NCBI GenBank assembly: GCA_963920765.1
Contig: OY987251.1
Span: 11,721,219 to 11,785,218 of the forward strand
Direction: 5' to 3'
DNA length: 64,000 nucleotides
From: Ulota crispa
Taxonomy: Eukaryota > Streptophyta > Bryopsida > Orthotrichales > Orthotrichaceae
Shown: one piece after another, positions 9,683 to 60,980 of the stretch
How positions within the stretch are numbered: the stretch's first letter is position 1
How the letters are laid out: each line of letters opens with the position of its first letter
The notes under the pieces: model-generated
What the model was told of the DNA's origin: nothing
Database searches by the model: none
Seen by the model: the letters and a program-made list of their open reading frames with translations, nothing else
Made by a program: the position numbers and the translations under genes

Positions 9683-10169
9683 AAATTTCCTTTCATCATT
9701 AAACCCCAAATCTCACCCCGTATTTCACTGCATTTTACCTACATGGCTGTAATTTTTGGAAGTTTTGGCATCAAGATGGAGAGACATCACTTAACCCCTA
9801 AACACTTGAGAGGTAAGGGCAAAACAGAAAGGTATTATAAAATGATACCTTTGTAACTTTGATGAAGTTTGCTTCAAAAGAGAAAAGAAATATCAAGATG
9901 TTTAGTAATTATATATATGGTCAAAAATTCAAAAAAGGTTAAGGACTCATATGTAATGAATTTGGAAGCATTTACCATTTAATATTCATCAAAATTACAA
10001 ATTTTACTTATAGAATTCAGAATTTGGTGTGATTGGTTAAAAACAAACATTTTATTCTAAAACTTGAAAATGTAATATTTTTGAAGATGATAACATCATT
10101 AGTAAATTCTATAACACTAGCAAATATTGAAATGTTTGTCTTTGGAAAAAATTCTTTGGTGGAGTTTAA

Positions 10170-10969
10170 TCCCAAAATGACCTTAAGGACAGAATATGTC
10201 CTTGACCATTTTTTGAAGTTATATAAAAACTTAACAAACTAATATTTCTAGTAGTTTTTATATTTTTGAAAAAAAAAAAAAAAAAAAATCTAGTTTCAAC
10301 AATTTGATATTGCAAATGATTGTTTATGATTTTCTATTCAAGATTTTGTGCATGGGTGTTCATTGCAATCTTGACTTTATGTAGCGTTGAGGGCTCTTGG
10401 GAATGAACCTCAAGTACAATAGATCTTTAAAAAAAAGTCATATTAGAAATTCATTTAAAAAAATGTAAAGTAGGTTTTGAGAAGTCATAAATTGATTGGA
10501 GTTATGCATGTTAGGCCCTTTAACCTCAAATTTTTTTGGTAACCAACTTTTTTAATTTGACATGTGAAAAGAAGATTCAAAGATTTTAAATCACTTTCAC
10601 AGTTTTAACACCCTCATGATCAAACCTTATAATCTTTCAATCCATAAGAGACGTTGTTGTGTTTTCTTTTCTAATGTGATCTCTAACATGTCTAGTTTGA
10701 TTTTTTACGTTTATAATTCAAAAAGAATAGATGCAACTTATCAAAATGTTCACTTTTTGTTCAAATTAGAGCAAATTCCTAGAAGCTTAGGAAATTCTAG
10801 GGTTATTTTGGGATTAACTTGGATTGACATGATTCAAATTGGGTTGGAATGTAAACTTGCTTTCCTATATGAAAATATTTTTTTATTTTTTCAAAAAATG
10901 TTCTTTTCATTTTGGACAACTTGCCAAAAAGGGCAACAACCAAAAAACTGTCAATTGGGCATTTAGGTG
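10170..10969. mobile_element. TTAA-flanked element P1 (piggyBac-like MITE)
   Basis: About 800 bp between TTAA 10166-10169 and TTAA 10970-10973. The ends are worn (TCCCAAAATG... and ...GGGCATTTAGGTG). The interior is the reverse complement of P5 (30164-30808) and P7 (47122-47765), with shared CAAGATTTTGTGCA, GGGTGTTCATTGCAAT and TCTTTCAATCC. It includes a poly-A run near 10270. No transposase frame. Confidence 0.55.
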
Positions 10970-11078
10970 TTAAGGTTTAGGCCAACCATTTTGCTAAAAC
11001 CAACTTTTGTCCCTAATATCACCTATAGTTGTGCACAAAATATTAATAATTTTGTTGAGTACTCATTTTTCTCCGTAA

Positions 11079-11780
11079 CCCTTAAAAGATTGTTGTCCCT
11101 TGGAGGGACAAATGAGATTTTGGGCATGTATTTACAACTAAATTGACATTGAGTGATTTACTAAAACTATTATGGAAGATGGGGAATTCAAAGATCTATG
11201 TGGGCATATAATTTTTTCTTCATTCAACATTAATTGAAGAAGTTATGTATGAATTTTTGGAAAACAAGCAAGGGCAGGTTGCCCCCTTTTTTTTTAATGC
11301 AAATTTTTCAAATAAAAATCTGAATTGGTTTTTTATGGTTACACATATGTGGGAAGTTTTGAATCATTTAGTTTTGATTGATGAGATGAAAGTTGTGAGA
11401 AGTTTTAGGAGTTTGTGGGTGGGTATGGTTTTGATAAACTCCATACCTACCTACAAACAAAAACTTCTCATAACTTTCATCTCATCAATCAAAATTGATT
11501 GATTCAAAACTTCCCACATATGTGTAAATCTGAAGAACCATTTTTAAAATTTAACTTTAAAAGTATGCAATTTAAAAAAAACATTGGGTTGCTTGCCCTT
11601 CCATGTTGTCCAAAAATTTGTGCACAACCCGTTCAACAAATGTCTAAATAAAGAAGAAATTAGATGTCCACGTAGATCTTTAAATTTCCCATCTTTTATA
11701 AAAATTTCAAAAAATCACACAAAGTAGTTCAGCTGTAAGTACATACCCAACTTCCTTGAGGGACAATGATCCAATAGGGG
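11079..11780. mobile_element. TTAA-type foldback element P2
   Basis: About 702 bp, right flank TTAA (11781-11784), left flank altered to GTAA. It is almost wholly an imperfect hairpin of two arms of roughly 330 bp, seen for example as CACATATGTGGGAAGTTTTG and its complement, and TGATGAGATGAAAGTT and its complement. Subterminal GTCCCTTGGAGGGAC is a short palindrome also found in relatives P3 and P6. The 85-codon frame at 11245-11502 is part of the hairpin and not a credible gene. Confidence 0.6.
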
Positions 11781-11863
11781 TTAAAGGTTTATAAGTTTCA
11801 AACTCTCTATAACATTGGGTGTCTCTATGTTCCTCAAATTTTGAAATCAAAGAAGGAGGAAGA

Positions 11864-12173
11864 AACGTGTTATTCATTAATTTGGGTTTAGGGTGGGTAC
11901 CATTTTGTACCTCACCTTAATCCAAAATAGCCACCTTAATTTAAATTTAGGAGGTCACTTGAAACATAGTTAATGAACTTTTGTCCAAAATTTCAAAAGT
12001 TGATGAACTTTATGTCCAAAAAGAGCTTATTTTTGGAAGATATATATCTCATTTCATTGGAAAACAGTCAACGAGTTCCCAATTCAATAAATATGGCATT
12101 CTTTGGATATAAAAACATGAAGCGCCTCTTTTAAAGCTTTTTCCCAAATTAACAAATAACACCTTAACCCTAA
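11864..12173. repeat. Family A MITE, copy 4
   Basis: The left end AACGTGTTATTCATTAATTT is matched on the right by the complement of AAGGTGTTATTTGTTAATTT. The interior has GGTACCATTTTGTACC and AAAATAGCCACCTTAATT. Its right end abuts the TTAA that starts P3. Confidence 0.55.
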
Positions 12174-12177
12174 AGCC

Positions 12178-13036
12178 CCACAGTCCCTTCAAGGGACTTT
12201 GAGGATTTTGGGTAGGCCGTGTGACTTCAATTTTTTACATGATTTTTTGAAACTTTTTATGAGTGTGTAGGAATGTATAAGGTTTGTGGGATGCAAAAAA
12301 TCATGTGATTATGTCACACAGTTCACAAGTTATGGGCTTTTTTTTGGCCAAAAGCGGTTCCAAGGGCAGCTTGGGCAAGGGAGAAAATATTAACTTTGAA
12401 GGGGGGGAGCAAGGAGGGGTTGCCACATGTTGCTATCCCCATTATACCCCTTTCATTTCCAATCAAGAGGTCAGATTGAGCTTTGGGAGCTTCTAAATTT
12501 TAGAGTTTTTGAGGGTTTTAACTCTTTTTTTTGACATTTGAAGTACATGTTCATCTTCAAACACACCGTTTGGATTTTCCATATCTAAAAACATGTGGTG
12601 GGAAACTTCACTCAAAAATGTCATAGTGTATTGGCAAAACTTGTCATATAATGGCATTGCAATATTTTTTAGGATGTGTTTTGTGTCTCAAATTGCCTTA
12701 AAAATTGGTGTACAAAGGTCTAACTTGATTACCTATAAGACAAAATTACAACTTCAAGGTCCGTAGTGCATAAAATTCAGCAAATGTCAGTTAAAGCCAT
12801 CTGAAATTTTTGGGCACAATGAAAAATAAAAAAACATTTTCCTTCAAATGCTCATAACTTTCAATCCGTACGGTCAAATGTCACGAAATTTTTACCACTT
12901 CTTCTTCTACAAGTGCATTACAAGATCCTATGGTTAGATCTTCAAGAACAGCATTTCATTAAAAAAATTGGTGAACGCAGCAATAGGGACAGTTTTGAGT
13001 GATTTTTGGCAGAAAATGACCTTGGTAGTTTAGGGG
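12178..13036. mobile_element. TTAA-type element P3
   Basis: Left flank TTAA (12174-12177) followed by CCCTAAAGCCCC. The right end is TTTAGGGG followed by TCAA, an altered TTAA. It carries the subterminal palindrome GTCCCTTCAAGGGAC shared in form with P2 and P6. About 859 bp, non-coding; the 70-codon frame at 12284 has no motif. Confidence 0.45.
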
Positions 13037-13379
13037 TCAAGAAGAAAAGGTAGGGAAAGGGCGGATAATAACTCAAACAGAAAAGTCACACGGCAAATAG
13101 CGCGTGCAATATGGTTGTAATACCTAATTCTTGAGTGTATGTAGCTAAAAGATATCAATATATCATGCTACTAGTGAATGGTACTAATTAATTGTGCATG
13201 AGATGTTAGGTGAACAAAGTCGTCAATGCCAATTCAACTTCATTCAATTTAGATGGCATTTAATTTGAATGGAATGTTCTTTTTGGTCAAGTTTGCTGAT
13301 TTGTTTCTCACAGTGGTTTATATTGGATGCCTTATTCTAAACTAGAAGTTTCCAATTCTAAACCAAATACTCTCCACTA

Positions 13380-13604
13380 AATGTTGCGTTTAGGTTGTGG
13401 GCATTACATTAAATGTTGCATTTAAGTTGTCCCACAAGGGCTTGGCAACAAGCTGCGGAAAAACAAATTAGCAACATTCAAGTTGTATATCATGTGAAAT
13501 TTTGAAAAGTTGCATGCACTACGCATAGCAATGAGTCACAAGGTAACTTTTTATCGTAAAGCAACCTAATTGTTAATGCAATCTAAATGCAATAATTGAT
13601 ATAT
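13380..13604. repeat. MITE family O, copy 2
   Basis: It starts after TA with AATGTTGCGTTTAGGTTG and ends AATGCAATAATTGATAT near a TA. It shares GGGCTTGGCAACAA, GTTGCATGCA and GCAATGAGTCACAAGGTAAC with the other O copies. The left end is partly duplicated (a second GTTGCATTTAAGTTG at 13417). Confidence 0.55.
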
Positions 13605-13862
13605 TAAATTCAAACTATGCAATTCTAGTAGATGTTTTTTCTTTGAGTTTTAATCCTTCAATGTTGAGCTAGTCACATTGACCAATCCATCTACAATGTT
13701 CTAGAGAGGTGTGGCAAGTGTCTACTCATTATAATATTGTTTCTAAAAGTTACAAAATTAAAGAGTGCATGCTACCCTCAAGAAAATTGCAAGAAGGGTT
13801 GCATGAGACCCAACACTGTGTGAATCTTCTCACAATGTGAGGTACCTAAAAATATGAGTGTA

Positions 13863-14094
13863 GGTAGGTGACTCAAATTTTGACCGTGTTCTAATTAGGT
13901 TCCCTATCTACAAATGAGTGACATGTTCCTTCAGATATCTATTACTATTATTGATTAGGTAGGCTTACCAACCATTTAAGCCTACCTATCTCATCAATAA
14001 CAATAATAAATATTTGGAGAAACATGTCACTTTTTCCTAGTACCTGGATAGGAAAAGCAATTAGAACATGATCAAAAATTTGAGCCTCCTACCT
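13863..14094. repeat. TA-flanked foldback MITE with CTACCT end
   Basis: A 232-bp near-complete hairpin: GTGACTCAAATTTTGA pairs with TCAAAAATTTGAG, and GATTAGGTAGGCTTA with TAAGCCTACCTATC around the centre near 13974. Flanked by TA. The right end GAGCCTCCTACCT matches the ends of the F family, so it joins the same terminal superfamily. Such a hairpin would fold strongly if transcribed. Confidence 0.6.
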
Positions 14095-14182
14095 TAGTTG
14101 GTGAGGTTGTTTATTTAGTTGGTGATGAGCCTCCTACCTTAGTTGGTGAGGTTGTTTATTTAGTTGGTGAGGTTGTTTATTA
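14095..14182. repeat. Short tandem reiteration next to the hairpin
   Basis: Reiterations of TTAGTTGGTGAGGTTGTTTA, including one copy of the MITE's own end GAGCCTCCTACCT, follow directly on the element's right terminus. This suggests slippage or repair-associated duplication at the element border. Confidence 0.6.
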
Positions 14183-15051
14183 CCTTCCATAATGGATCAT
14201 ATGTCATGATCACTTTTGGAAAAAAATCAGATGTAAATCAACCTGCAGAGCATTTTTCGTCCCCTTCGGGATTTATGGGTGAAAAGTGGCGGTTGAAGAA
14301 GCAATGCCATGTATCAAAATGTCAGTGCTTCATCTGATTGTATTCGACTCCATGCACAAGAAGGTCCAACAGTAATGAACACTGGTACTTTCTTTTAGCA
14401 TATGACAAACCATGATAGGCATTGAAGACATTACAACTTTACAAGCCTACAATCATCACAAAATTCGATATCCAAGGGTACCATAAAATCTATGTCATTC
14501 AGTGCAGGCGAAGACTCGGCTACCTGGTACTGTAGTTACAAATTCTAGATTCTTTGTTATGCACCTGCACGTGGCAAGCCGTACAAAGTTTTCTTCATAA
14601 AATAACAGAACCGAATTCAAGAGTGTTTTTTCCTTCATCTATAATGCCCCCAAATAGATAATCTGATGCATGTTGGTTGTGACCAATTTTCACAACTCCC
14701 ACTTTTGCTCCATTACACAACTAAACACTGGTATAACCCAAATATTACCACTTTTTTCCACGTCAAAAGAGCCAAGTCTTGAAACATATTTTAACACTAC
14801 AGAAGTGAGCCTGAATCACAAGTTCAAAAACTCAGCTGTACAATGATATAAAGATTCAAACAAGGCACAGACTCCTTATTTGTCCACCAGGATAAAGCTC
14901 ACCAGTCAGATCGGTATTGAGTACAACCTCCAATTAACCCTAGCACCCTATCCAGTAGTGATCTCCAGATGTGATTAGATCATCACTAAACAGCGAAAGC
15001 TACGAAATAGTAGGGGTAGTAGTTGAGAAAAGGCAATTTCACAGTACCCTT

Positions 15052-18000
15052 TTAAATAGTCCTCCAGTTCAACTCCACTAAGATCTTTCCACGACCCGAA
15101 TCAGTCAGCTGAAATGTCTCGTTGATCCTCTTGTTCTTCACCACATCCATCAGAGGAATATCCACGTAGCCCAAGGACTCCTTCACACACAAGAGCATAC
15201 GATTTAGTATCACAATAAAGCCCTAGTTATTTACTGAAAATTTTCGCAGTATATAGAAGAGAGAAAAGTACACCCTTCGTAGCACCCCATATCTTGAACC
15301 AGACAACTATTTCATAATCTTGACAATAACACTTGTATATTCACTCAAGACTTCTTTTCTAGACATCCTGGGATACCCAAAACACTTGCCATATAACCAG
15401 ACAGAAGCGACACAAAAAGATATGACAATCTTCTGGGATCCTAAGCAATCAGCTTAAAGATATAAAAAATGAGATTACCTGTCGATGCACCATATTCATG
15501 CCTGAGCCTTTGCTGTGGACTTCGATGTGCAGGCGGTCATTACTGGGGGAGTCTTCCAACTGCCAAGTAAACTCCTTATCCCACCTCGGGTCTCTGTTCT
15601 TCTTGATTACCTGAACGGAAGAACAAGGCATCAACAGATCAAGCAGTTGCATAGCATGGGCACAGGTTTCTGAATGCCTAAAGACCCTTCCCTGGGACAA
15701 AAGGGAGCATCTCGATTATATACTCACCTGAGTTTTTTGCTTCTCCCCGCGGAAATGTACTTCAACGTAAGGGTTGGTGTGATGCTTGCCTTCCACTTCC
15801 TCAGCGCTATGAATAATAACCGACAGCAAGCCTCCATTGGGAGATGTTCCGTCCGGAGCCCTCTGCTGACCATCCACTTCCTCCATTGCGCTGCTGACAT
15901 TATCCTCCTGAAGCCATTAAAAAAAGGTGAGACACTGATCCCACATGATACGCGTATCCTAAACACAGCTGCCAGACATGTTCATGACATTGTACTTTCG
16001 CACTGCCTCAGTTGCTTTCTCTTTAGGGATTTGGAGCCTTACTTCCTTGAAAGGCTTGAAAGTGATTTCAAATGTAAGTTCGCCACGCTTTTTGTTGTTT
16101 GCGTCATCATTAGGGTCCATGTTCTTCACTAAAGATACAGTGTAGGGTTTAGGCTGATCTTGCACCAAATCCTTCAATGGTACGATCTGCATAGCCATCT
16201 TCTCATGGGCTCCAATCTGCCAGATATGTATCTCCATTAGTCAGCCACATTATCAAGATCCATATACAACAACAACAAAAAAACGCCATGTTTGGCTCAC
16301 GATGATTAACGCTTATCTCATAATACAAAAGAACGGCTAGAAAAAGCTCCATCATAGAAAAGCGTACATGCAATAAAGTACTAAAGACAAGCCTTCTCTG
16401 ACTTAGACAACCATGGCCCTAGAAACTTCTTCACTGTCAACACAAATCAAGATGGTAGACATGAGTGAAATCTCATTACAAGAGAAAAGCCTTCGTACTC
16501 ATACCTTTTCCCAGTCATAGACCTGCAGCTCTAGAGATTGTGACTTTGGATCCTGAACCAGAAGCTTGAAACTCTCATTCCACACGGGGTTCAATGTGCT
16601 CATCTTTGTTGTCGTTGTCTTCGACAACATAGTTTTAACTAACTGAATCTTCACGTACGGATCAGCTTTGCCCATCAAGTCCTTCTTCAACAGGTTCTTA
16701 GCATGCAGAATTTTTACCTCAATTATGCCTACTGGCCGCTTTGCAGCACTGCCAAATCATAGAGTCGATGTCAAGAACATTCTGCTACTGAACATAATCA
16801 AGACAGGGCTGCTAAGATGAATCAAGAAAGCGTAACAAAGAACACCATTTCTGAATACCTGGGATCATCAATCACAGGAATTTCCAAAGTCTTTGGCCAC
16901 ATGTACATTGCAGCGACCTGATCCCTAATTGTATCCTGCAATAGGTCATCAAAAATTTGTTAACAAAGATGTGGCACAAAAATAAATTTAAATTTAAAGA
17001 AGCACACATGAGAAAATAATGAATTCACATACCTGAACGAAACCATAAAGACCAGGAATTGCCATGACATCTCCACCCAAGAGCTTCAAACCAAAATCTA
17101 CATGGGGCTGCCAACACAGAAGCAATTCATCGTTCAAAACTATTTAGATAAGAGAATTCATAATCCATATTAGAACAGCCTGCACATCTGAATGCAATTG
17201 CTGACACAATGATTATCACAAACACGTCATCCAAACACCCGTTCACAATCCAGTCAGCACAATGCCTAAGACAATGTCCACGCAAAGGAACCTTATATGA
17301 AATTCTTAACACGTACCTTATCCATCAAGGAAATAACTATCTTCGAGAAACAAGGGAAGACAGGAACCAGCGGTTTCAATGTGATTCGTGCAGTTGCAAA
17401 TACTTGTACGTCTACCAGCTGCACATCCAATGCAGTTTATTTTCAGAATTCAAAATATACAAAAGATAATCGAATAATCAAGGGAGGTTTAAATCAGCAA
17501 ACATCGCAACTGACCTGAACAGTTGCCTTCATCCCGAAAGCCTTGACAGCAACGATGATGTTCGGATTCCCAGCAAACTTGAAGGAAGGCTCAAGGATCA
17601 CCTCCTTCTCTTTAGTGTCGTACACTTTCATTCCTAGAGTACATAATAAGGATCAACGATGAGACTTTACTTTGTTCGCACCTGCTGCACCAGGATGTAC
17701 AAATGGCAAAAGTGACAACTAACGGCACAGAGATAGAAGAGAAAATTCTTTTACCGACGAAAGTGGGAGGGAGAGTTCCAAGAGTTAGTGACTCGAAGTC
17801 GATCGAAGTCAACTTGTACTGCGGTCCATACTGATCAATGTAAGGTTGAGCCTGCTGTCGAACCATCTTGCAAATCGCCTATCAAGATCGTTACAGAAAA
17901 TATCAGTTACTCAGCTTCCGGAAACAGTACATACAGCTCATATGAAATAATTACAAACACCCTGCAACTGGCCGTATATTTTTTTGCAAATGGTAAAGAG

Positions 18001-18867: not shown

Positions 18868-19160
18868 TGCGACACAATCCCGCTGATTTCCACTCCAATG
18901 TTCCTGTCTCGCTCGCTAAGCTTACCTCTGCTCGCTCTCTGCTCAGCCGAGGCAATCCGCCATGGACCTAAGCAGAAGAAATGGCGATGGCGGAACGGAG
19001 GAGCTCGGAGACGACGACAAGGGCCGTGGCTATGGCGGAGCTATGGCGGGGCTATGGCGGAGCTAGGGCTCGAGTAGGTGAGGTGTCGGTGCGGGAGGAA
19101 GGGCAGGTCGTGGGGCCGCCAGCTGGGCGTGCCACGTGGCGGGAATGACCCGTCAGATTG
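18868..19160 (-). promoter_or_regulatory. Leader and proximal promoter of the synaptotagmin gene
   Basis: The 290 bp upstream of the SYT start is clearly GC-richer than the DNA beyond it. It contains a small reiteration of GCTATGGCGGAGCTATGGCG (about 19026-19065). It probably holds the 5' leader and core promoter; no TATA box is obvious. This is inferred from position and composition. Confidence 0.35.
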
Positions 19161-19728
19161 GTAGGTAGGTCCTTACCTTTGAACGCCTCGCGAGCAGGGT
19201 TGGAATTTGACTTGCTGCAAAAATTTGAAAAACGTAGATCTGATAGATTCTGCAGCCTTCACATGAACCAATTTCGTTCATTTGGAAGATTTGTAAACAT
19301 GCCAGAGTCCAACGCTGCTGGTGAAGCCTATATGGGGCAACAAACGGGCAGAATCGGTTACCAACATGAAGTCAGCCGGTTGATGGCAAAGAAAAACCGG
19401 TTGAATTTTGAAAGTGCAAGATAAAAATTGGCCAGATCTTTTCAAGAATCTAATTATAGGAAAGTACAGTACACATCAGGGTTTTTTTTTGGCACTGTTT
19501 GTGTTCATGAACAGCAAGAAGCCTATGTGTCAGCACGGGTATGGAGAATTTCTAGAGGGAAGCAAGTGCACTGGTCAAAATTGAATAAATTGATTTTGAA
19601 TTTGGTTGCAAGAAGTTAAACAAAAAAATCCTTGTACACATGTTGGAAATATCTAGTCCATGTTTGCAAAAACTAATTGAAAATGAGAAATGTTAGACTT
19701 CAAGTAGTGAACCTAGAAAATTTATGTG

Positions 19729-21289: not shown

Positions 21290-21293
21290 TTAA

Positions 21294-30808: not shown

Positions 30809-30815
30809 TTAATTG

Positions 30816-31985
30816 AAGGAAAAATATCAAAAGTAGGCCTAACAATTGGCTATGTTTTGATAACAGGCCTGACAATTAAAAAGTATCAAAAATAGGCCTC
30901 ATCAAGGTCTGGGAAATATTTGAGTATTTCCAGTTGATTTCCTTCAATTCCGAATTGGCAAACCGGTCTATCAAGGAACTTTTTCTATTATTTTTTCTAT
31001 TTCATATAATAAATATTAAAAAAATTTAGATTTTCCACTGACTTTTCAACCGATGTTTACAAATTGCAAATGATTTTTTTCCATTTCAACCGGCTAGCTT
31101 TGAACTAGCTGCTGGTTTGTCTTGGACCTTGGGCCTCATCATATATAAAAAGTAGGCCTTGCAATTAAGGTGACCAAAATTTTGTGCATGTTTATGAGAA
31201 TTGGTATGAGCACACCCGGGGTTTGATACATGCACACTAGAGGAGGTGTAAATTTTAAATATTTATCATCAAAAAGCTAAACTTGGAAAATTTGAATTTA
31301 GGTTTGGATTTGAAGATCTTGATTTGTTCTAGAACCACACTAGAGGTTACAATTGAACAATACCCTATGGAAATGCTTAACTTTTTACAGATAAGGGTAA
31401 AACTAATAAATTTCCCCTAGCTAAGTTTTTCCATTGGGTATTGTTCAATTGTAACCTCTAGTGTGGTTCTAGAACTAATCAAGGTCTCCAAATCCAAACC
31501 TAAATTCAATATTTCCAAGTTTAGCTTTTTGATGATAAATATTTAAAATTTACACCTCCTCTAGTGTGCATGTATCAAACCCCGGGTGTGCTCATACCAA
31601 TTCTCATAAACATGCACAAAATTTTGGTCACCTTAATTGCAAGGCCTACTTTTTATATATGATGAGGCCCAAAGTCCAAGACAAACCAGCAGCTAGTTCA
31701 AAGCTAGCCGGTTGAAATGGAAAAAAATCATTTGCAATTTGTAAACATCGGTTGAAAAGTCAGTGGAAAATCTAAATTTTTTTAATATTTATTATATGAA
31801 ATAGAAAAAATAATAGAAAAAGTTCCTTGATAGACCGGTTTGCCAATTCGGAATTGAAGGAAATCAACTGGAAATACTCAAATATTTCCCAGACCTTGAT
31901 GAGGCCTATTTTTGATACTTTTTAATTGTCAGGCCTGTTATCAAAACATAGCCAATTGTTAGGCCTACTTTTGATATTTTTCCTT
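30816..31985. repeat. Near-perfect 1.17-kb inverted repeat (hairpin)
   Basis: Two arms of about 556 bp (30816-31371 and 31430-31985) are reverse complements with only scattered single mismatches and a 58-bp loop. Examples: AAGGAAAAATATCAAAAG at the left end against its complement at the right end, and AGACAAACCAGCAGCTAGTT against AACTAGCTGCTGGTTTGTCT. No open frame. It starts three bases after P5. A transcript would form a very long double-stranded RNA. Confidence 0.9.
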
Positions 31986-42152: not shown

Positions 42153-43365
42153 TTAGGCAGCTACAGCCTCCTGAATGGGATACTCAAAAGTGACTTCCTT
42201 CCCTGTAAGCTTCTTGTACACTCCGGCATAAGTCTCCAACTTATACTCAGTGCTGTTGCGTTCCTTGGGGTCCAAGTACACACGCATGATGCGAGATCCG
42301 TCCAAACGGTAGCGCTGTCTCTTGCCGACAATCTCTGAGGGATACACCAAATCCTCCAGGATAGCCTCATGAACGCAGGTCAAGGTCCTGCTCCTTGGCC
42401 TGTTGACAGCTGAGCCCTTCTTCGGGGGTCTCAGAATGCGCCTGGTTGAAATCACCACGACATCCTGAAAAATATTGAAACAATGAATTAACATCACAAC
42501 AACCTCACTAAGCACATAACAGTCAATTCCTACTGTGCACCACATTGCTCAATCCACGAACCAGGACCTTCATTGAATTGAGTCCAGCAGGGAAGCTTTG
42601 CCCTTTCAACATAATCGTTATCATAGATTTCACAATGGGAGCATGGAACAATAAGCTACATCTAGGTTCTGTCTGTATACACATATCTAAAACCCTAAAA
42701 AATTAAGTGCAAAATCTCAACGCAATGCCAGGCGAAACACAACTGCGGTGAACATAATTCAGAGATATGGAGTTGCACACTTGAGAGACGAAAGGTACAT
42801 ATCTAGGTCCTGTCTATATCGACGTGAATACACATATCTGAAACCCTAAACATTTGAGCGCAAAACCTCAACGCAATGCCAGGCGAAGTGCACCCGCGTC
42901 GAACATGGGTCAGGGACATGGAATTGCACACTTGGGAGACGAAAGGCAACAAGCAGAAGATGATTAGATATAATCAAGGATGCAGAAATTCCGAAGGGGA
43001 CTTGAAACCCTAGGACGGGAAAACCTCCGCATCAAACCCTAAAATACATAGAACAGTGAAACAAAGCCTCCCTAGGAAAAGAGACGCACCTTGCCGCTGA
43101 ACTTCTTCTCCAGTTCCCGAACAAGGCGGGCATGGATCTTCTGGAAAGCCTTGCGCAGACGATAAGGCACGTGGATGATCACGGCCTTGCGGTTGCCAGA
43201 GACGTCGACTTCCTTGGCGGAGTTGATGAAGAGGTCGCGGAGCTCGCTCTTGAGTTCGGTGTTGGTGGACTCCAGGTCGAAGAGGGCCTGGGCCACGGAC
43301 TCCTCAAACTCATCGGGCTCCTGCCCTTTCTCCTTCTGGATCTTCCTGCGCGCGGTGAAAGACAT
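42153..43365 (-). CDS. RPS7: 40S ribosomal protein S7 (eS7), two exons
   Basis: Component of the small cytosolic ribosomal subunit. Exon 1 is 43365-43090 (92 codons, [10 protein letters not shown]... to EKKFSGK); the intron begins GTGCGT and ends TTTTTCAG; exon 2 is 42464-42153 ([16 protein letters not shown]... to EAVAA and TAA). Total 195 residues, close to the usual 190 or so. Landmarks of the family are [29 protein letters not shown] and the C-terminal [20 protein letters not shown]. The upstream frame continues without a stop, but its 34 residues are low-complexity Arg/Pro leader. The start is therefore placed at MSFTARRK, which matches the position seen in the family. The intron (625 bp) contains a tandem duplication. 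The gene is GC-rich relative to its flanks. Confidence 0.95.
42657..42950. repeat. Tandem duplication inside the eS7 intron
   Basis: Two direct copies offset by about 151 bp share CACATATCT(A/G)AAACCCTAAA, AACGCAATGCCAGGCGAA, GAGTTGCACACTTGAGAGAC or variants, and GACGAAAGG. The divergence between copies is moderate. Intron duplication; no splice-site effect is visible. Confidence 0.8.
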
Positions 43366-43660
43366 GGCGGCGAACAACAAGGGCGGGCGACGACGAAGGG
43401 AGAGAGAGAGTCGAGGATGGGCTGGCTGGCTGGGGGGAAGCACCGGACGCCGCTGCCTGCGAAGCACGGGGCGCGCGAGTGAAAGAGAAATCTTCGTGGA
43501 GGCGCTAGGGTCTCTTTGTCTCTCGCAGTACCCTCGACGACCCTGCGTTACCTCTCGCCGTGGACGTGCGCTTGCGGTCGCGGTTGGACAGGAATTAGGG
43601 TTTCGTTGTATCGAGTTGCGTCACGGTATAGCACGGAAATCACATCCTCGATAAAAGCTA

Positions 43661-47765: not shown

Positions 47766-47769
47766 TTAA

Positions 47770-49263: not shown

Positions 49264-49276
49264 AAATCATACTTAA

Positions 49277-50633
49277 CCCCTAAGCGCCCCACATTCTCAA
49301 ATATTGCCTCTCTAGATTTAAATTTTGTGAAAATATAAGGCCTATCTATTATGTACTCTCAAGGGGAGCATACTGGCAAGAAGAGGGTGTTTAGGGGTCA
49401 TGCCTAGGAGTGGACGATCATTGATTCAAGTGTTGTACTTGTAGGGAATGGGATGGTTAGGTAGTCGGGAGTGCATCCTTTTTTGTTTTTTGCGTGTTTT
49501 GGGCTATTGCAAGGAAACTTGGGTAACCAGCTAGGGGAGGTTCTTTGCACTACGTATGTCAATTTCATGACCCCCAAATACTGATATGTACTTGTGTGCT
49601 AATGTTGAAACTTTGTTGAGACATTGGTTTATACTTTCCCTAACCAATACCAAAATTTTAGCCCATGAAGATATATATTTCATCAAAACTTCTAACCCCA
49701 AAGTCAAGAAACCCTCCTAATTTCATTGAAATTGCAAAAGCCAACCATACTTTGACCCCTATAATATCATAAACCACTTGGTGAAAAAGTGCCAAACTTG
49801 CCTAGCTCATGCAAAGGGCAGTTCTTTCCCATTTTCAGCGGTCAATCCTTTAGAATGTACCCCTAAATGACGGACCTATGACCATTGCTTTTAAGCTTCA
49901 GTGCCTATCACTTAACTTGTTGTCATTTGGCAACTAGATTTTAATGAAAAAATTTAAATTTACTTTTCAAAAACAAATCAACATTCCTTCTTTAATTCAC
50001 AAAAAAATAGATTTAATTTGTACAAAATTGTTTTTTTTTGAGAATTTTTGAAGAAAAAGTGAAGGAAAATCACATCAAATAGAAAATTATTTCAAAAAAT
50101 CTGAAAAATTCATCATGTGTGTATATTACAATGACAAACATCATGGTCTAAATTAAATTTCCGTGTCATTCTATAATTAGAAAATAATAAACATTGAAAA
50201 TACATTCAAAGTTTAGATTGCAATAAAATATTCAATATTAGGAAATTTTCCAAAACTCAAATTGGAGTAGAAACTAGATTAGATGGCCTTCATTTTGTTA
50301 GTTGGGCTCAAACTCAAAAAATATCATTTTTGTGAAGAAATTTTAGATTTAGAGCAAGGAGCAACAACTTCCCAAAATACACTAAAATAACATATTTTGT
50401 GATCTATTTTTTGTTCTAATTTCTCATTTACATAAAAAAACATTTACAATACTACAAATTCAATTGAATACTCCTCATAACCCAACATGATGAAAAATGA
50501 TTTTTCAAAATGTTTTCAGTTCACTGAACAAGCGCCACAGCATGGCGCTGCCGGCGCTTCTGAAGCGTACAATGGTGTGACCAGTGGTACCACCAATGCT
50601 CCCTTTTGCAAACTCCCCCCGAGCACTCAGGGG
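49277..50633. mobile_element. TTAA-flanked element P8 (piggyBac-like)
   Basis: 1357 bp between TTAA 49273-49276 and TTAA 50634-50637, ends CCCCTAAGCGCCCC and, from the right, CCCCTGAGTGCTCGGGG. The right end is shared with P4. Mostly AT-rich with no credible frame. It ends about 540 bp upstream of the MSH6 start codon. Confidence 0.7.
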
Positions 50634-51168: not shown

Positions 51169-51170
51169 CT

Positions 51171-54100
51171 ATGGCGCCGGAGACTAAATCAGCTGTTGGA
51201 AAGAGCCGTCCTCAACGCTCTATCAAGTCTTTCTTCACTAATAGTCCGGCGAAGGCTCTTGCGGAGTCGAGTCCCGGGGGGAAGAAGAAGGCTGTGTTGG
51301 AGATAGGGCGTGTGGATGCAGAGCAGCAGGTTAGTTCGAAGGAGGAGGAGGAGAGGAGCGACAATGTAGAGGCTAAGTCGGTGATCCAGTCTACTCTTGG
51401 GAAGAGGAAGAGCGCTTTGGAGGTAGGGCATGATGTAAGTACGAAAAAGAGCGGGAAAGCGGTATCGAGGAAGCCGAAGGTAGTAATTGCAGCAGATGTT
51501 AATGTCGGGATGGATGATGTTGCTTCGGAAGACGAGGCTACTCCTTTGAAGAGACGACGGTTAAGAAAAGTTAGGAATGACGAGAATTCAGATACTTTGC
51601 TTGTGTCATCGAGTGGACTGAATCCAGAGTTTAAGGTAGGTCGGAGGTTGAAGGTTTATTGGCCGTTAGACAAAGCCTGGTACGAGGGACGCGTGACATC
51701 ATATAATGCGAGCGAGGAGAAGCACGTTGTGCTTTATGACGACGGAGAAGAAGAAAGCGTTGATGTTGTTAGGGAGAAAGTGGAGTGGCTTTCTGAATCT
51801 GAAGATATGGAGACTGACATGCGACCTAAGCGTCGTCGGAATGTAGCAGCGAAGTCCAATTCGAGATCTAACGGGAAAGAGTCGACGACAGCAGCTACTA
51901 AGGGGACGGATGTGGAAGTAGAGAACGGAGACGCACCAAGACGGGGACGAGCTACACGGCAAAGAAAATGTATGAAAGAAGCTGAGGAAAGTGGAAGTGA
52001 TGACGATGAAGACGATGCCGACTTTCTTGTTGCGCAAGACTCTAGTGAGGGTAAAGAAAGCGAAGAGAATGATGATGAAGAAGACGACTACGAATCTGAT
52101 GAACCTGAGGAAGAGAGTGATTCTGATGAGAAACCACGGAAAAGACCAAAGAAAACACCTTCGAGCGCAGTCAAGAAGCCAAACGCACGTGGATCTAAGA
52201 AACTGAGCAAGTCGGCTTCGACCGTTGGTGTAGGATCAGGGATTTTCAAAGGTTCTTCATCAGGAAAGAATCTGTCGGGTAATACTAGGATCAATTCTGG
52301 ACGGCTGAATTCTTCCGGAGGCGTCTCGAATAATTTACCATCAAGTGAGTGCCGAATTTTTAAGACGCCGCTTCTTAATTAATCTCTAGTGTTGGTTTGT
52401 TGTATTGCCTACGCTGTTCTTCCATGTTCTTACGTAGTTCTTGTTCTTGATGGACTCAGTGATTTCTGATAACATTCACTTTCGCTCAGGTGATCAGTCT
52501 GCTCTGACCGGAGATGCAGCCGAGCGCTTTGCTAGTCGTGATTCAGAGAAGTTCAAATTTCTTGGAAAGTAGGTTATTTGGATTTTTTCTTGTGATGTAT
52601 ATATCTCTTTGCTTGCCGCGATGATTTGAGCATACAAATGCTTCATGTATCTAGATCTTTGTGTGTTCATACGGTACAATTTGTGTTAAGCAACTTTGTA
52701 TCTGCCATGTAGGTCTATGATTTCCCGTTCATTGTGGTCCTCTCAAACCAAGGTCCTCTACTGTGTGTGGCTCTTTGCCCTTTATACTTTTGATATTTCC
52801 TCGGATCGTGTTCCAGTAATGAAGTTTTGGCATGGTAGAGAAAAATATGCTATATGCGATGCAATAGATATTAGAACTTGAGTGTTTATTGTTTTAATGG
52901 CATCCAATCTTGACCATATTGTGGTTTTATATCTACTGGCAGGGACCGGAGGGATGTTGCTGGTAGAAAACCCACTGATCCTGGTTACAAAGCTTGGACG
53001 CTCTATCTGCCACCACATTTTGTGCAAGGGCTTTCAGAGGGGCAGGTATGCTGCTGTGTTTCGTGGCCTAGATTCTGGTATTTTTTTCAAGTTTTTGTTA
53101 TCTTTAATGGCAGGCGTCTTTCTTGACTTGAATTGAATTCGCATGGATCAATGTCTTCTGCAGCGCCAGTGGTGGACGTTTAAAGCCAGAAACATGGATA
53201 AGGTTTTGCTGTTCAAGGTAAACCGTTCTCTTTGATCAACAAGCTCAATTTGCAGTACACCGTGGATTTTTGTGACAGTGTGCTTGTTTTTAAGGATGCA
53301 GCGTGATCATTCCCTGAGCCACTGGGTACGCTGGTTTCGTTTCCTGATGTCTATCTTGTATTGAAGAGGTGTTTTGATTTGCCAGACCAGTCTGTTGTTT
53401 TGCTAGAGTAAATTTAGAATGAAGGGAATGATCCCATGTGAAGAAATCTATCATTAGACCTTGAAATTATCATCACTGCTTGTCGGTTGCTCTGTAGATG
53501 GGAAAATTTTATGAAATGTTTGAAATGGACGCACACATCGGTACGAAGGATCTGGACTTGCAGTACATGAAGGTCTGTTCTCCCTTACATTTTAACACTC
53601 TTCTTTTTGCATTGTGGGCTTTGACAGGAAATTTGCAAATGCTTCTACTTCAAACATGACGCTTTTAAATGTTTTAAATGAATTTTAGCACGTTATCTTT
53701 CTTTTATTTAGAGGACGTTGTCATACCGATCAGTATTATCTGGCTTGTGTTTGGAGGTCAAAAGGATTCTTTCGATCTCATCAGTATTTCATCTTTTGCA
53801 GGGTGAACAGCCTCATTGTGGCTTCCCAGAGAAAAATTTCTCGGATAACGCACGCAAACTAGCTCTCAAGGTACTACTGGTTATCATACAGGGTTTACCA
53901 GGCCTGTCTCACAATTCTGTTTCATGAGCTTTGTTTGAAGTTATGATTCTAGCATGAACCCGATTATAATTTGTATTATGGTCACTTCTACAGTCAAGGA
54001 TTGTTTGATTAGTATTCGGTGTTTTAGTAGATGGTCTGAGCCTACAGGTGTATCTTTGTATTTTAGTCCTCGTGCCGCTTGTAATCCAAAGCTCTCTATT

Positions 54101-57100
54101 GCAGGGACACCGGGTTCTTGTTGTGGAACAGATAGAGACACCTGACCAATTAGAAAAGCGGCGGAGAGAAACAGGGTCCAAGGACAAGGTATGTGTGGCA
54201 ACTCAAATGCGATTTGTTCCTATTGTCCTTTTATAGCATAGATTAATCGTGGATATTAACACATACGTATTTTGAGTGTAGGTTGTTATGCGCGAAGTGT
54301 GCGCTGTGATCACAAGAGGCACTATGATGGACGGAGATGGTGCCCACATGAGTGGAGAGAAGATGGTTATGTTATCACTCATCGAGCATACCTCAGAGAC
54401 TGGTTCTTCATTAATTGGTCTCTGCGTGGTGGATGCATCGACAGGCTGCTTCCAGCTGTGCCAGGTGTTCAAACGTCTTTTTTGCTATTGTCTCTGATTA
54501 TTGCTGCTTCCTTTACTTTTCATTGTAAATTTTCAATTTTTACTGATTTCAATGTATGAGACCTTGACTGCCTTGAGTTGATTGAACGCTCACACTGGAG
54601 CTACTTCTATTGTTCCGACTTGCAGTTTGAAGATGATGGTGCCAGAATGCGCCTAAGTGCTGTGTTGACAGAATTGAGGCCAGTTGAGCTAATAATACCT
54701 CGCGGTACCGTTTCCCCTGCAACTTCTCGGGTTCTTCGTGATTGCACGAGACAGCCACTGGTCAACGAACTGAATCCTGGTGATCTATGGAATTCTGAAC
54801 AAACTATGAAGGAGGTTGTTGATGTATACGCCGGTCTTAGATCTGACAATGAAAATGCGGTTGCCGAGGAGGAGTTGGTGCCGAAGGTTCTGAGACATGT
54901 GACAGCACTCGGAGAGAAAGGAGAGCTTGCGTTATCTGCCTTTGGAGCATGTGTCATCTATCTGCGTAAAGCTTTATTGGATCAGACTTTGTTGGCCGTT
55001 CGTCGAATCGAGCTCCTTCCATCCTTCAATGCACTCCTTGATCATCCTGAAAGCAAGGCTTTTGTGGAACAGGAAAAACGTGGGTTAGATGCTGCCTTGC
55101 ATAGGATTGAACCGCACATGATGCTGGATGGTGCTGCCTTGGAAAACTTGGAGGTTTTAGAGAATTCTGATGGTGGCACGAGTGGGTGAGCTTGTTTTCA
55201 CTTTAGTCCTACGAACCATGCTGAACATGAGAACTGCAAGTCGGTTGCTTGAAGGCGTTGAAGCTATTTTAAGTGGATGTCTTTTCAAGTGAGATATCGA
55301 TAATAGTGATTCTATCTCGTCACTGAGACGTCCACCCTTTGATGTGAAGGGTCATCTAATGTGTCGATGACTCTTTTGGACAGAACATTGCTGGCGAAGC
55401 TAGATCATTGCGTCACTCCATATGGTCGGCGCTTACTGAGGGGTTGGCTTGCAAGGCCTCTACTCCTTGAGGAGTCCATTAGACAACGTCAGATGGCTGT
55501 AGGAGACCTGAAGGTAAGCTGCAGAAGTTTTGTCTCATTTGAAATATACTATTTTCTATTTGCTATTCGACAATTTCAGTAATATTGATTGTGCCACTTA
55601 TTCTTATCGTGATTTATCAGGGAGTAGCTTTAGATGCCGTGTCACGATTTAAGAGAGAGATGGCAGGAGTGCCTGACTTGGAACGCACACTAGCTCGATT
55701 ACATGCCAGCAGGTGAATGATCACCTTTATAGAGTGTCTTCTAATTCATTTGAAGGTTCCTTTGTGATGAATATCAATTTTTGTTTTCGCATTTCAGATG
55801 CTACTATCTTTTTCCTCTTGTTTCTGCTTTTGGGAGAAGGTTTCGTATTTGAACCTTTAAATCAGATGTTTGCTACGATTCATGGTGCAATTTTGCTGTA
55901 ATTGAGATCTTTGGCTGTGCAGTGGAGCAAATGGAAGGAATGCAACAAAGGTGGTCATGTATGAGGATGTAGGGAAGAAGCAGGTTCTTCAATTTACCGC
56001 GGTCTTGCGGGGGTGCCGATCGATGCTACAAGCAGTTAATCATTTTGATTCCTATCTCACGAAACTGACATCAAGTCACTTGAGGGACCTACTTACATTT
56101 GGTTCGTAACTAAGCACTATCGTTTGAGCCACGATTATGCATTACGTTCTTCTTCTGAAAGATGGTGTTTGCTGCTGGCGGCATTGTCATTATCATCCAG
56201 TATTTGTTGCAGCGGTGTAACATAATTAATTCTGATTAGATTGACACGCAAGGCCGCAAATTTAGTAAATATCATGCGTTGGCGGGGGTTTATTGGGAGA
56301 TTCACATAGCAGTTGCTTGAATTGGAGATGTAACTGATAAATGAAACCTGGGCTTTCAATCAGGGAAGGGTATGCCAGATATGAAATCTGTCATCGAACA
56401 TTTTGAGACGGCATTTGACTGGCCTGAAGCTGAGAACTCAGGCCGTATACTGCCTCGTGAAGGTGTAGACAGCGACTTTGATGCTGCATCTGCTGTAGTC
56501 TCTAAAGTAGAGGCGAAGCTTGATGCTTACTTAGAAGAGCAGCGTTTGCACTTTGGCAATTCCAAAGAGGTTGTCTTTATCCTGATATTCCTCGGCATTT
56601 CTTCTTCAATTCTATTGATTCCTTGTTCATTTGTTCATACGTGTTGGCTATAATGGTATGCCTTGAACTTTAGTCCAGGTATGCTGTGCATTTTGTTCAT
56701 GTGGGTGATAGTTTCGCTGATTGCTTGGAACTTGTGAAACGCAGATTGTTTACTTAACTGTAGGTAAAGAATCTTATCAGATGGAAGTGCCTGAACGATT
56801 TCTTGCCAAGATCCCTCGAGATTTTGAATTGCGTTCGTCCCGGAAGGTATTTGCGCTCTACTTCGTATTAATATTTTCATGTATCCATGCTACGTCCATG
56901 TTGTGAACAAATCTGCAATGAATGCGATGAATTTGTAACCCAGCCAGTGCATTTCATATAATAGTTGCGAAAGATGAGGGCGGGATCACATGCCTCCGTA
57001 ATACATACGTATTGCTAAATGCCCCGAGTGTTCTGGCAGGGCTTCCGGAGGTATTGGAGTCCAGAAATCAAAAGCCTTCAACAAAAGCTGGCTGCTGGAC

Positions 57101-59299
57101 GTGAAAAGCTAGAAAATTCTCTAAAGGATATTTTAATGCATTTGGTGCGCAACTACTGTAAATACAATTCATCTTGGCTCTCCGCTGTTCAAACTATCGC
57201 AGGTAATTACTGAGCATTTGACGACATTACGTGATATTGTACCTTTGTGGGAACCTTGTAGCTATCTATTGCAATTCTCAGCGGCGAAACTCTTAAGGAT
57301 TTCCTTGGAAGGAATGCAAGTAGGAGATTATGCGTGGCAAGAAACCTGGCTGAGGATAATGAAGGGTCACAGTTGACATAACCTGTTCTTCATGCGTTGA
57401 ATCCATGCAGAGGTGGATGCGCTTATTAGCATTTCTACGGCTAGCTTATATACAGAAGGTCCTACCTGTACACCTACGTTCTCCGAAGGTGGGCAACAGA
57501 CTCCTTGGTTTTATGCCAAGGACCTTCGCCATCCTACAGCTGGGGCTGCTCTTGCAGCCGAATACTCCTTTGTGCCAAATGATGTTAACCTTGGTGGAGA
57601 GCAGCATGCACCTTTTATGCTACTGACAGGCCCAAATATGGGAGGGAAGTCCACCCTTCTTCGACAAGTTTGCCTGGCTGTCATTCTGGCTCAGGTATTT
57701 TGTTCTACAATTTGACCATTGGGATTGTGATCGTTCTCTGACCGTATTTGTGTTGCATGGGAATTCATGTTTTCACTTTCCACTGCTAAGGTGGGCCTAC
57801 TGCCATTCTAGAGATTATATGACCTGAAATTGAACGGGACAGGTTGGAGCTGATGTGCCAGCTGAGGAGCTGAAATTGGCTCCCGTAGATCAAGTTTTTG
57901 TTCGCATGGGAGCTAGAGACAATATTATGGCTGGGCAAAGCACTTTCCTTGTAGAACTTCAAGAAACGGCTATTATGCTGGTGAGTACTGATTATGAATT
58001 CACGCTTTGTAACACTTAATTATTTCTTCTCATCTGATTCTTGTTGAAGCTTTAGGTCTCTGAAAGTCACTCACTAGGAATGTGATCTGATCATTCTTAT
58101 GAACAGCGCTCTGCTACAAAAAATTCTTTGGTGGCTTTAGACGAGCTGGGTCGCGGAACTGCAACTTCAGATGGTCAAGCAATTGCGTAAGTTGCTTACT
58201 ACATCAGTATCTTCCTTTTTTATGTCCAATGACTCAAATGGATTGGTGAACCTGTGACAGTGATTCCTCTCTAGTGATGTGCTCTGAGAAATGTCTGCGT
58301 TGGTCTTAGATGGTGGATGGTTGATTTGCAGTTTGCTGTTTATGCTTGACTTTTGAATCCCCGAGGAACCTTTGGTAATCTAGAAACGTGAAGATAAATC
58401 GTGGCCTCTGGATGGATCGTTAATGCTCTGGTGTTCCATTATTATCTGCATTTTTAGTTTCTACTCAAGATTTTGGATGCCAGTCGGACTTATTTACGTT
58501 GTCCGACAAATTTTCCTGATTGCAGGCATGCCGTGTTATGGGAGTTAACCCATGCGATTGGTTGTAGGGGTATATTTTCTACCCATTATCATCGTCTGGC
58601 AACAGAGCACGCTACAGACCCTACTGTACGATTCCTAACTCTGTTCTGTTCTAATAAATTTTCTTTGATCCCCGAGTGCAATAACGTGTCATATCTTTAA
58701 CGTTAAAACTTCCTGCAGTGATCATGATAAGATGCAAGAAAAATGACTAGCTAGCATAATTGCTATAAACGAATTTGATCTGTATAGTATAATTGTTTCT
58801 TTTCTTTTCCAAAACAAGTCAACAATACTGTCCTCAATATATAGGACATACTCTCTTACTAGAAAAATTACTATCGCCGTCTTGAAATAAGTCTCATGTC
58901 GCATGTTTGTCTCCTATCTAATCTATTTGACGATTGTAGGTGGCATTGTATCACATGGGATGCAAAGTAGCAAGCTCCAAAGGCGGCTTGGAAGAGGTAA
59001 CGTTTTTGTACAAAGTGTGCCCTGGTGCTTGTCCTAAGAGCTACGGTGTGAATGTAGCCAGGCTTGCAGGCATGCCAGAATCTATATTACAAAGAGCCAG
59101 TACATGCTCAGCTGAGCTTGAACTTTCATTTGAGGAGAATAGAATCAGTCAGCCTACGATGACCCTGGAGGATCCTGTCGCTTATAAGCTTCTCAAAGAA
59201 TTAGGCCATTCCCTTGAGGACATGGAAAGAGATGCTTCGTTAGAGAGATTGGTGCCACTGTGTGCTGAAGCTAAGAAATTGGTTGCTTCCTCAGCCTGA
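51171..59299 (+). CDS. MSH6: DNA mismatch repair protein MSH6, 20 exons
   Basis: With MSH2 forms MutS-alpha, which binds base mismatches and small loops in nuclear DNA. Exons: 51171-52344, 52490-52568, 52943-53045, 53164-53217, 53498-53572, 53802-53870, 54105-54188, 54282-54464, 54626-55185, 55384-55513, 55621-55712, 55923-56101, 56364-56569, 56745-56846, 57040-57202, 57411-57694, 57843-57980, 58107-58186, 58526-58625, 58940-59299. All joins keep phase and give 1,404 residues (Arabidopsis 1,324). Visible: PIP box QRSIKSFF (15-22) for PCNA; NLS-like KRRRLRK (127-133); Tudor domain (155-207), a plant MSH6 trait; acidic tract (about 275-325); mismatch-probing F474-Y-E476 in GKFYEMFEMDA; Walker A TGPNMGGKST (1157-1166); Walker B with LDEL (1236-1239), then GRGTATSDG; FSTHYH in the last domain. 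The start is the first ATG in the frame of the PIP box. It looks intact. Confidence 0.96.
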
Positions 59300-59538
59300 C
59301 CGACATAGGTAAGGACTCGGACAAGGTACATACAATAGCCGAAAGTTTATGGTTCTTTTAGTTCCTGATCCATAGACATTGCTTATAATAGATAATGGAA
59401 GTCGATGTGTCTTAGACGCCATCTCAATTATTCTTATTACATTTCTACCTTATAGTTGTGAGAGGATGCCTAGTGCTGGCAGCAGGAGCGTTCTGTAGTG
59501 ATTCTGCAATTTTAATTAAATCCAAACTCAATGGATTA

Positions 59539-59947
59539 AGGTAGGAACACTCATAACCGTGAGTGTACCCCTGGTTGTGACCTAGGTCTGACACAAGCTG
59601 TCAGTCATTTGAAATTAATAAACTTGGTGGTTATGGGAACTTAAGTGATAGTTTTGGGTGACAAAGTGATGATTATGGGTGACAAAGTGATGGTTGTAGG
59701 TGACTTGCATGACGGTTTAGAGAACCTCATCCTATTGTTTTTAGCATCTCCTACTCACGGCCATGGATTTTTAGTGATTTTGGATTTTAAAAAATCTTTG
59801 TGAACAAATGTTTGCAATTGGGACTTTGAAATTGATCTCAATATTTTTCATTCCTTCTTACTAATCTAGCAATATTGTTTTCAAGCTTGTTTGACCAAGG
59901 TATATACCCTATAATGCTTACACTCACGCTTGTGGGTGTTCCTACCT
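59539..59947. repeat. Family D MITE, copy 3
   Basis: 409 bp flanked by TA (59537-59538, 59948-59949), ends AGGTAGGAACACTCATAACC and GCTTGTGGGTGTTCCTACCT. It begins 240 bp after the MSH6 stop. Internal reiteration of GGTGACAAAGTGATG. Same terminal superfamily as D1, D2 and the F elements. Confidence 0.7.
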
Positions 59948-60496
59948 TAACATGTAAAATTAGTACATATGTTATTTATTTGTGGTCATTTCACAAGCAC
60001 CGTTTTTATCCAATTCTCATAAAGGTTCTGTAGATAGCAAGCAAGGATTGAGGACATTGATTCTCGTGACAACTGATTGTATGCGAGGTCCTCATGCCCC
60101 AAGTCTTTTGTGGTTGCATTCACATTAGTTCCTACATATTCTCGGAAATAACATAACAGGAGCCACTCAAGTGAGGCAAGGTTTATCTGTGGAGACTTCT
60201 ATCATATCCAGAAGAATGTTTTAAAATTACAAAAAGAAACTATGTCTCTTTGTTTTTATGCTTATTTAGTTATTGATAACAAACAATTGGGCTTGTAACT
60301 AGTTTTTTGTGATTTATATTTGGATGCTTAAAACGCAGAGTTAGATGTTCTTTTGTTGAAATTGCAAATATTTTGAATGTGATATTTCATAATCGATAAT
60401 ATTGGATGCATTTAAGATTGTAATGAACCACCTCGGGGATCTTGAATGGCACAATTTTGGCGCTATGGAATTATTGGCCTTTTATTGACAAGCATG

Positions 60497-60980
60497 TAAC
60501 ACCATATTAGGTAAATTGGGAAAAATGGAAGGATCAATTTGTACTCCACTTTAACCCTTAAACAACGGAAAGGCCCTTTGCGACCATTACAATACGGGGT
60601 ATTTTTCTTGTATTTGGAATGGATCCACACTTCTACTGCATTTGAAACCAACAAAGAAGTTGGAGAATAGATCAATGCGGTTCTAGTGAGTTACTTGAAA
60701 TCCCAAATTAAAATTTCTTATTGGTAACAAATGACAATTATACATCAATGTATATACTATTTCCTATGGTCGATTAAGGGTTAATCTCACATACAATAAA
60801 TGTAAGACATAACTATTGCTCAAAATTATAATTATTGAAATTCTTGGAGGTAATCACTAAGACTTCACTACTGTACAAAAAAATGCATGCTTGTTTTTTT
60901 GTAATATGCTAAAATGTACATAAAGGCTGAAATAGTGAAGAGTCCCAAAATGTACCATTTTTCCCAATTTACCTAATTGT
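60497..60980. repeat. Family A MITE, copy 5, split by P9
   Basis: The left end ACACCATATTAGGTAAATTG pairs with CAATTTACCTAATTGTCC on the right. The interior near the right end has GTCCCAAAATGTACCATTTT, as in the copy at 4910-5168. It is interrupted by P9 at 60555-60780; without it the element is about 250 bp, the family size. Confidence 0.7.
60555..60780. mobile_element. TTAA-flanked element P9, nested in a family A MITE
   Basis: 226 bp between TTAA 60551-60554 and TTAA 60781-60784. Ends CCCTTAAACAACGG and, from the right, CCCTTAATCGACCATAGG. The host MITE reads through on both sides, which supports a genuine insertion at TTAA. Confidence 0.75.

Follow-up and report, generated by a model that had tools for sequence, protein, structure and literature searches.

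The closest described systems are the piggyBac element of Trichoplusia ni (structure 6x67) and the piggyBat element of Myotis (9c0f), both of which combine a TTAA target, CCY-type ends (Y being a pyrimidine) and a DDD(D) transposase of the DDE_Tnp_1_7 family with a cysteine-rich tail motif. A 2022 review of land-plant transposable elements, in its accessible part, names six superfamilies with terminal inverted repeats (TIRs) and piggyBac is not among them (PMC9033089). Excerpts of other papers count 1230 piggyBac copies in the C-fern (PMC6890710), place piggyBac in all groups of a superfamily table (PMC4438587) and apply the piggyBac label among the miniature inverted-repeat transposable elements (MITEs) of angiosperms (PMC10004981). 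For the moss Ptychostomum knowltonii, the available text gives TIR elements as 29% of the genome with CACTA holding the largest share (PMC11704416), and no description of native piggyBac in a moss was found in the literature searched, which lacks most subscription journals; two papers that bring up piggyBac in connection with mosses refer to it as a tool only. Here we analyzed a stretch of 64,000 nucleotides (the window; C10:11721219-11785218 of the 274.8-Mb genome G000, 157 contigs) in which the first-pass annotation had placed nine TTAA-flanked elements, P1 to P9, and had classified them as piggyBac. The classification held, on the strength of a long relative which joins P5-type ends to a piggyBac transposase and of empty sites with a single TTAA. 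The elements are very probably non-autonomous (MITE-type) members of the piggyBac superfamily in the nuclear genome of a plant, most likely a moss, and the superfamily in this genome resembles piggyBac and piggyBat in its target, ends, transposase and tail motif.

The main family found in this study is that of P5.

P5, 30164..30808, + strand: 645 bp, main family; recombinant of two head-to-tail copies.

The exact P5-type end, CCCCTAAATGCCYAAGG, occurs 2736 times genome-wide (1353 + 1383) and TTAA stands directly before it in 2291 of these places (84%; 1133 + 1158), with zero occurrences of the reversed patterns. Genome-match counts refer to the best-scored candidates only (40 of 4943 for P5, 40 of 331 for P8 and 116 of 528 for PF13843, the DDE_Tnp_1_7 domain; for the end queries, 40 of 1873 and 40 of 417 for the first and last 800 bp of the long element L052 and 40 of 903 for the P5 flanks). 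Contig starts read as N, and telomeres were accordingly not seen. Within this scope P5 has at least 41 matches of full or near-full length at 83-100% identity, P5 included. The first 100 listed places of CCCCTAAATGCCYAAGG contain twenty facing pairs, fifteen of them 629-656 bp and five 899-930 bp in length. Thirty P5-family loci were read as a sample that favours copies near P5 and includes duplicates (groups L009-L011, L012/L019/L021/L028/L029 and L017/L018/L024). Exact TTAA was found on both sides at 23 of these 30 loci (left 25, right 26), some of them being mutual duplicates. The majority sequence of the 30 copies has inverted CCY-type ends, both reading TTAA-CCCCTAAATGCCCAAGGCAC, and P1 and P7 begin with TCCC. 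Divergence from the majority sequence has a median of 6.7% (0.055-0.116; 30 copies), which argues that the burst of this family was not recent, in a sample favouring near-P5 copies; with none of the loci read holding an intact transposase, the family may no longer be mobile.

The firm evidence lies in these multi-copy families; taken alone, short words of the CCCTTAA kind show no enrichment. Genome-wide, CCCTTAA was counted 43352 times against 50045 for the reversed control, and in the window bare TTAACCC and GGGTTAA (10 and 8 occurrences, against Markov means of 4.2 and 4.9 and maxima of 8 and 9; n=100) gave no clear excess. Element ends were scored with six 16-base end consensuses, some partly built from the window ends themselves. 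A scan of the window with these consensuses gave eleven sites at 13/16 or better, compared to 0-1 in each of ten shuffles; nine of the eleven are element ends treated here and the other two (14279 and 20494) lie outside them.

The first-pass annotation had proposed a search of the genome for longer elements with P5 or P8 termini and a DDE_Tnp_1_7 transposase, and one such element was found for the P5-type end. In L052 (C5:10866700-10873800) the transposase lies inside a 5.7-kb element (571-6308) bounded by TTAA and by P5-type ends scoring 15/16 and 14/16, while no site of 14/16 or better appeared in ten shuffled runs of 84 kb. The first 800 bp of this element matched 39 other listed places, 37 of which start at the first TTAA base and 34 of which stop at 547-589. 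The last 800 bp likewise matched 39 others, mostly over the last 110-150 bases, with 33 reaching the last base and six ending one or two bases short of it. At four places the element's first ~550-590 bp and its last ~115-135 bp are both present, with 908-944 bp from one to the other; the end sequences of two of these places were fetched, and in both cases TTAA was read at either end. This ~920-bp class is best read as copies of L052 with the middle deleted, because both ends are kept and the copies are too short to hold the middle.

A second element, 5.0 kb in length, was found in two copies that are 90% identical (C3:13130266-13135284 and, in C10, L054:401-5418), the C3 copy being read in two pieces with ~690 bp between them outside the comparison. 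The homology begins at TTAA in C3 and at TTCA in C10, and on the right stops within a base of TTAA; the left end in C3 was first predicted and then found on fetching. A third transposase-bearing element, at 1105-6404 of L051, has ends that are mutually alike at 12/14.

At least 120 matches to PF13843 were found in the genome (best 1.3e-73), and none of fourteen control genomes was matched. Two loci (L049 and L050) match the piggyBac 6x67 and piggyBat 9c0f structures, L049 at 7.8e-20 and 2.7e-24 respectively; E-values of 1e-17 to 1e-24 indicate that these transposases are distant from the solved proteins. All four catalytic aspartates, which we take to be residues 268, 346, 447 and 450 of T. 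ni piggyBac, are aspartate in the L049 alignment. A motif scan of fourteen loci gave GVDxxDQ in seven, VDxxDQ in two (copies of one element), GVNxxDQ in two (L047 and L050) and none in three. Paired CxxC motifs, 8-11 residues apart, follow the domain in eight of ten loci, in another frame in three by the motif check; L041 has one CxxC of the pair and L050 none. The window elements were said to have no transposase, and indeed none of the 120 listed PF13843 matches lies in the window, and the 10 of its 31 open reading frames that were scanned with Pfam showed no such domain, so they are non-autonomous. Stop-free transposase matches were also observed at L076 (C1:1178700-1184200) and L077 (C8:19569000-19574000), as possible domesticated genes or decayed copies; no TTAA-CCC end pair was found around these two open-frame loci.

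Duplication of the TTAA was observed at P1, which is nested in an older element.

Outer TTAA-flanked element, 9795..10969, unstranded: ~527 bp when the insert is left out, flanked by TTAA at 9791-9794 and 10970-10973; holds P1.
P1 (corrected), 10170..10813, - strand: 644-bp non-autonomous P5-family element in the opposite orientation to P5, lying inside 9795-10969.

The right end given earlier for P1, 10969, is the end of the older outer element. Homology to P5 and P7 (79-80% over 454-467 bp) and the inverted ends place P1 at 10170-10813, 644 bp, with TTAA at 10166-10169 and 10814-10817. With P1 taken out of the window and the 5.3-kb transposase-bearing element taken out of L051, the outer element aligns over its full length with its counterpart in L051. 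An uninterrupted copy in L013 likewise matches it from one end to the other, and a copy in L035, cut short by the end of the locus, aligns with it over 403 columns; the L013 and L035 copies both run across the P1 site. With the insertions omitted, the window, L051, L013 and L035 have a single TTAA at the same point (identities 79-90%). In two copies of one repeat, P1 and the L051 element thus occupy the same TTAA, each lying between two TTAA, so the TTAA was doubled. This repeat has 4-6 TTAA, and the sharing of one of them by L051:1105-6404 and window 10170-10813 could reflect either chance or a preferred site. The P5-family copy in L037 likewise has an empty counterpart in L050, at 87% identity and with one TTAA. 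Empty sites with a single TTAA, which the earlier account had named as the pattern to look for, therefore exist; from 33 joined flank pairs tried against loci already fetched, exact ones were obtained for P1 (two copies) and L037 (one).

P5 itself has a composite history. At C7:4037225-4038524, two head-to-tail copies (A and B) share one TTAA between them and have the flanks of P5 outside. The first 250 bp of P5 follow copy A (16 versus 46 differences) and the remainder copy B (15 versus 70), from which P5 is a single copy left by recombination of the pair, akin to a solo long terminal repeat. No empty site for P5 was found, as both flanks recur together only at C7 among the best 40 of 903 candidates; when the flanks of L019 were joined, matches to the left flank ran at most five bases past the junction. 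An origin of P5 by internal deletion of L052 was considered and ruled out on the lack of shared inner sequence, the ~920-bp class fitting such an origin instead. To the right of P5, at window ~30809-31985, lies an inverted-repeat-like element whose first ~180 bp recur inverted ~1 kb away (76-81%) and also elsewhere.

The remaining elements of the window are as follows.

P2, 11079..11780, unstranded: 702 bp, nearly one long inverted repeat; GTAA on the left, TTAA on the right.
P3 (corrected left end), 12168..13036, unstranded: TTAA at 12164-12167; right flank a one-base TTAA variant.
P4, 20525..21289, unstranded: 765 bp, TTAA-flanked.
P6, 39586..40722, unstranded: 1137 bp, TTAA-flanked.
P7, 47122..47765, + strand: 644 bp, P5-family, TCCCTCATTGCC end; 73% to P5 over 540 bp.
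P8, 49277..50633, unstranded: composite, TTAA-flanked.
Separate repeat within P8, 49859..50562, + strand: starts CCCCTAAATGAC after its first base.
P9, 60555..60780, unstranded: 226 bp, TTAA-flanked.

At the coordinates first given, seven of the nine elements (P1, P4, P5, P6, P7, P8 and P9) have intact TTAA on both sides, as had been reported, and a one-base variant on one side was likewise seen for P2 (left, GTAA) and P3 (right). Most of the bounds stood and three required revision: P1 is nested, P8 is composite, and P3 lacks a TTAA at the left end first given for it (12178), the one at 12164-12167 placing its start at 12168. The composite nature of P8 follows from its 39 non-self listed matches, all of which are confined to query 577-1291 (window 49849-50563; 84-91%) and lack the P8 ends. 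The corrected elements sum to ~7.5 kb or 12% of the window. Relatives of P2 in L003, L034 and L035 start with TTAA-CCCCTAAARGACCA, and relatives of P6 have TTAA at four of the five ends read (L003, L026, L031 left and L018) and GTAA at the right of L031. A full-length copy of P9 at 90% identity was found in L031 with TTAA on both sides. Positions 42-672 of P2 match their own reverse at 77%, such that a single strand could form one long hairpin. In L030:1501-2150, a P5-family copy was apparently inserted at a TTAA within a P9-type end (CCC-TTAA-ACGACC), leaving ATAA and TTAA.

The grouping of these elements into subfamilies stood in part. P1, P5 and P7 belong together (73-79% over ~450-540 bp), while P4 and P8 have only terminal bases in common. 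In the proposed P2/P3/P6 group, 92 bp are common to P2 and P6 (79% identity); BLAST at E 0.001 matched P3 to neither of them, and the tie of P3 to the group consists only of the GTCCC..GGGAC palindrome and the ends.

Several observations weigh against the assignment to piggyBac. Sixteen percent of the exact P5-type ends genome-wide lack an exact TTAA, as do seven of the 30 P5-family loci on at least one side, partly from trimmed match edges. The weaker empty counterparts (69-74%) of L023 and the outer element read TTGA, CTAA, CCAA and TCAA (twice). A search for exact TTAA around six wide-flank transposase loci gave paired ends in two (L051 and L052); the left end of L054, TTCA, falls outside such pairing, and the flanks of L049, L050 and L053 yielded no end pair. 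BLAST gave no inner sequence common to P5 and L052, so the parent element of P5 itself was not found. Among the transposases, asparagine replaces the third aspartate in L050 and L047, at least one stop occurs in 110 of the 120 listed PF13843 matches (read without introns), a stop stands ahead of the cysteine-rich part in L049, and none of the loci read contained an intact transposase. The ends of P4/P8, P9 and P2/P3/P6 score 11-13/16 against the transposase loci at their likely ends, which is close to chance when compared to 7.3 sites at 12 or better and 0.5 at 13 or better in shuffles (all sites).

This last point bears on the strongest alternative, in which piggyBac membership is limited to the P5 family, the ~920-bp class and the transposase-bearing elements, and P4/P8, P9 and P2/P3/P6 were moved by another transposase. 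We consider it unlikely. The link of these groups to a piggyBac transposase rests on end similarity near chance, with no long element whose ends match on both sides, yet they share TTAA and CCY ends, diverged matches to the piggyBac transposase are numerous in the genome, and the transposase-bearing element in L051 has a P6-like left end (12/16). The left end of P7 scores the same 12/16, a chance-level value, against both ends of the transposase-bearing element in C10. Kolobok and Sola3 also use TTAA, and the target alone does not set them apart from piggyBac; they are a most improbable source here since the transposases between these ends match DDE_Tnp_1_7, two further ones match piggyBac structures and most carry the cysteine motifs, though no search aimed at Kolobok or Sola was made. 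MITEs of the PIF/Harbinger or Tc1-mariner type, with TWA or TA duplications and the extra T/A coming from the end or a target preference, can be accommodated formally by dividing the palindromic TTAA of an empty site into a shorter duplication and extra end bases, but the piggyBac transposase found between such ends makes them very hard to credit, though no search aimed at their own transposases (DDE_Tnp_4, PF13359, for PIF/Harbinger) was made. Neither a duplication other than TTAA in the genome-wide copies nor an autonomous relative with a non-piggyBac transposase appeared, and membership in piggyBac was retained.

The host was examined through its photosynthetic proteins. PsaB from the 112.5-kb plastid contig (C157) scored 1681 bits to 7ksq, 6l35/7xqp and 8htu, 1643 to 9lut and at most 1603 to the remaining structures among the best 60 of 83. 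We take 6l35, 7xqp and 8htu to be from Physcomitrium patens too. In the accessible portion of its source, 7KSQ is from the same species (PMC11629750). For light-harvesting complex II (LHCII), 9vfj_2 ranked first, as a 620-residue chain which perhaps holds several LHC units, followed by 7xqp (345 bits), 8htu (344) and 8c29 (339). These rankings rule out a flowering-plant host, the group with which the first-pass annotation had drawn its comparison; judged from sequence, the host is most likely a moss, with a liverwort or hornwort less likely. The plastome size of 112.5 kb is consistent with a bryophyte in which one copy of the inverted repeat is missing. The genome has 56 chlorophyll-binding matches, and a small ribosomal protein exon at window 43072-43620 is closest to eS7 structures that are presumably of plant origin. 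A stop-containing LHC fragment (L068) had no PDB match at 1e-40. In addition, an LHCII-like gene cluster was observed at C4:21391382-21499621, and the plastid contig holds two of the 48 psaA/psaB-type matches, the other 46 being fragments in the large contigs C1-C10.

By analogy with the known piggyBac pathway, the transposase of a long copy would bind the ends that it has in common with the short copies, excise the latter and join them to a new TTAA, and the vacated site would be repaired to a single TTAA in a seamless excision. Tandem copies later recombine, as is seen in P5, which was fused from two adjacent ones.

The piggyBac superfamily is already known and has been reported from land plants as a minor one, and its abundance in a likely bryophyte is a surprise. 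Thousands of exact ends together with at least 120 transposase-domain matches were found in what is likely a non-flowering plant, which raises the question of whether early land plants inherited piggyBac or acquired it. We tentatively suggest, as somewhat less than an even prospect, that piggyBac is a major, long-lived and diversified component of the genomes of mosses, comprising multiple transposase lineages together with their MITE families, and has been filed under CACTA or PIF/Harbinger. Plant annotation schemes offer no class for piggyBac, which might explain why it has largely been overlooked; whether TIR elements of mosses have been misfiled is a further question, and such misfiling is a conjecture.

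Compared to piggyBac and piggyBat, the present elements differ in their probable moss host and in that no intact copy was seen, and the long elements (5.0-5.7 kb) are larger than the ~2472 bp given for a well-defined piggyBac in the available extract of PMC10813416. As short companions of a piggyBac-type element, the window elements are similar to animal piggyBac MITEs such as those of Daphnia Pokey, as far as the accessible parts of PMC3849761 and PMC4912750 describe them; the hosts belong to different kingdoms and the likeness is one of description, not of sequence. Finally, they resemble the Tourist/PIF-Harbinger MITEs of plants in being short and abundant and in having an A+T-rich target, whereas the latter have a 3-bp TAA/TTA duplication, according to the excerpted text of PMC10004981, and another transposase.

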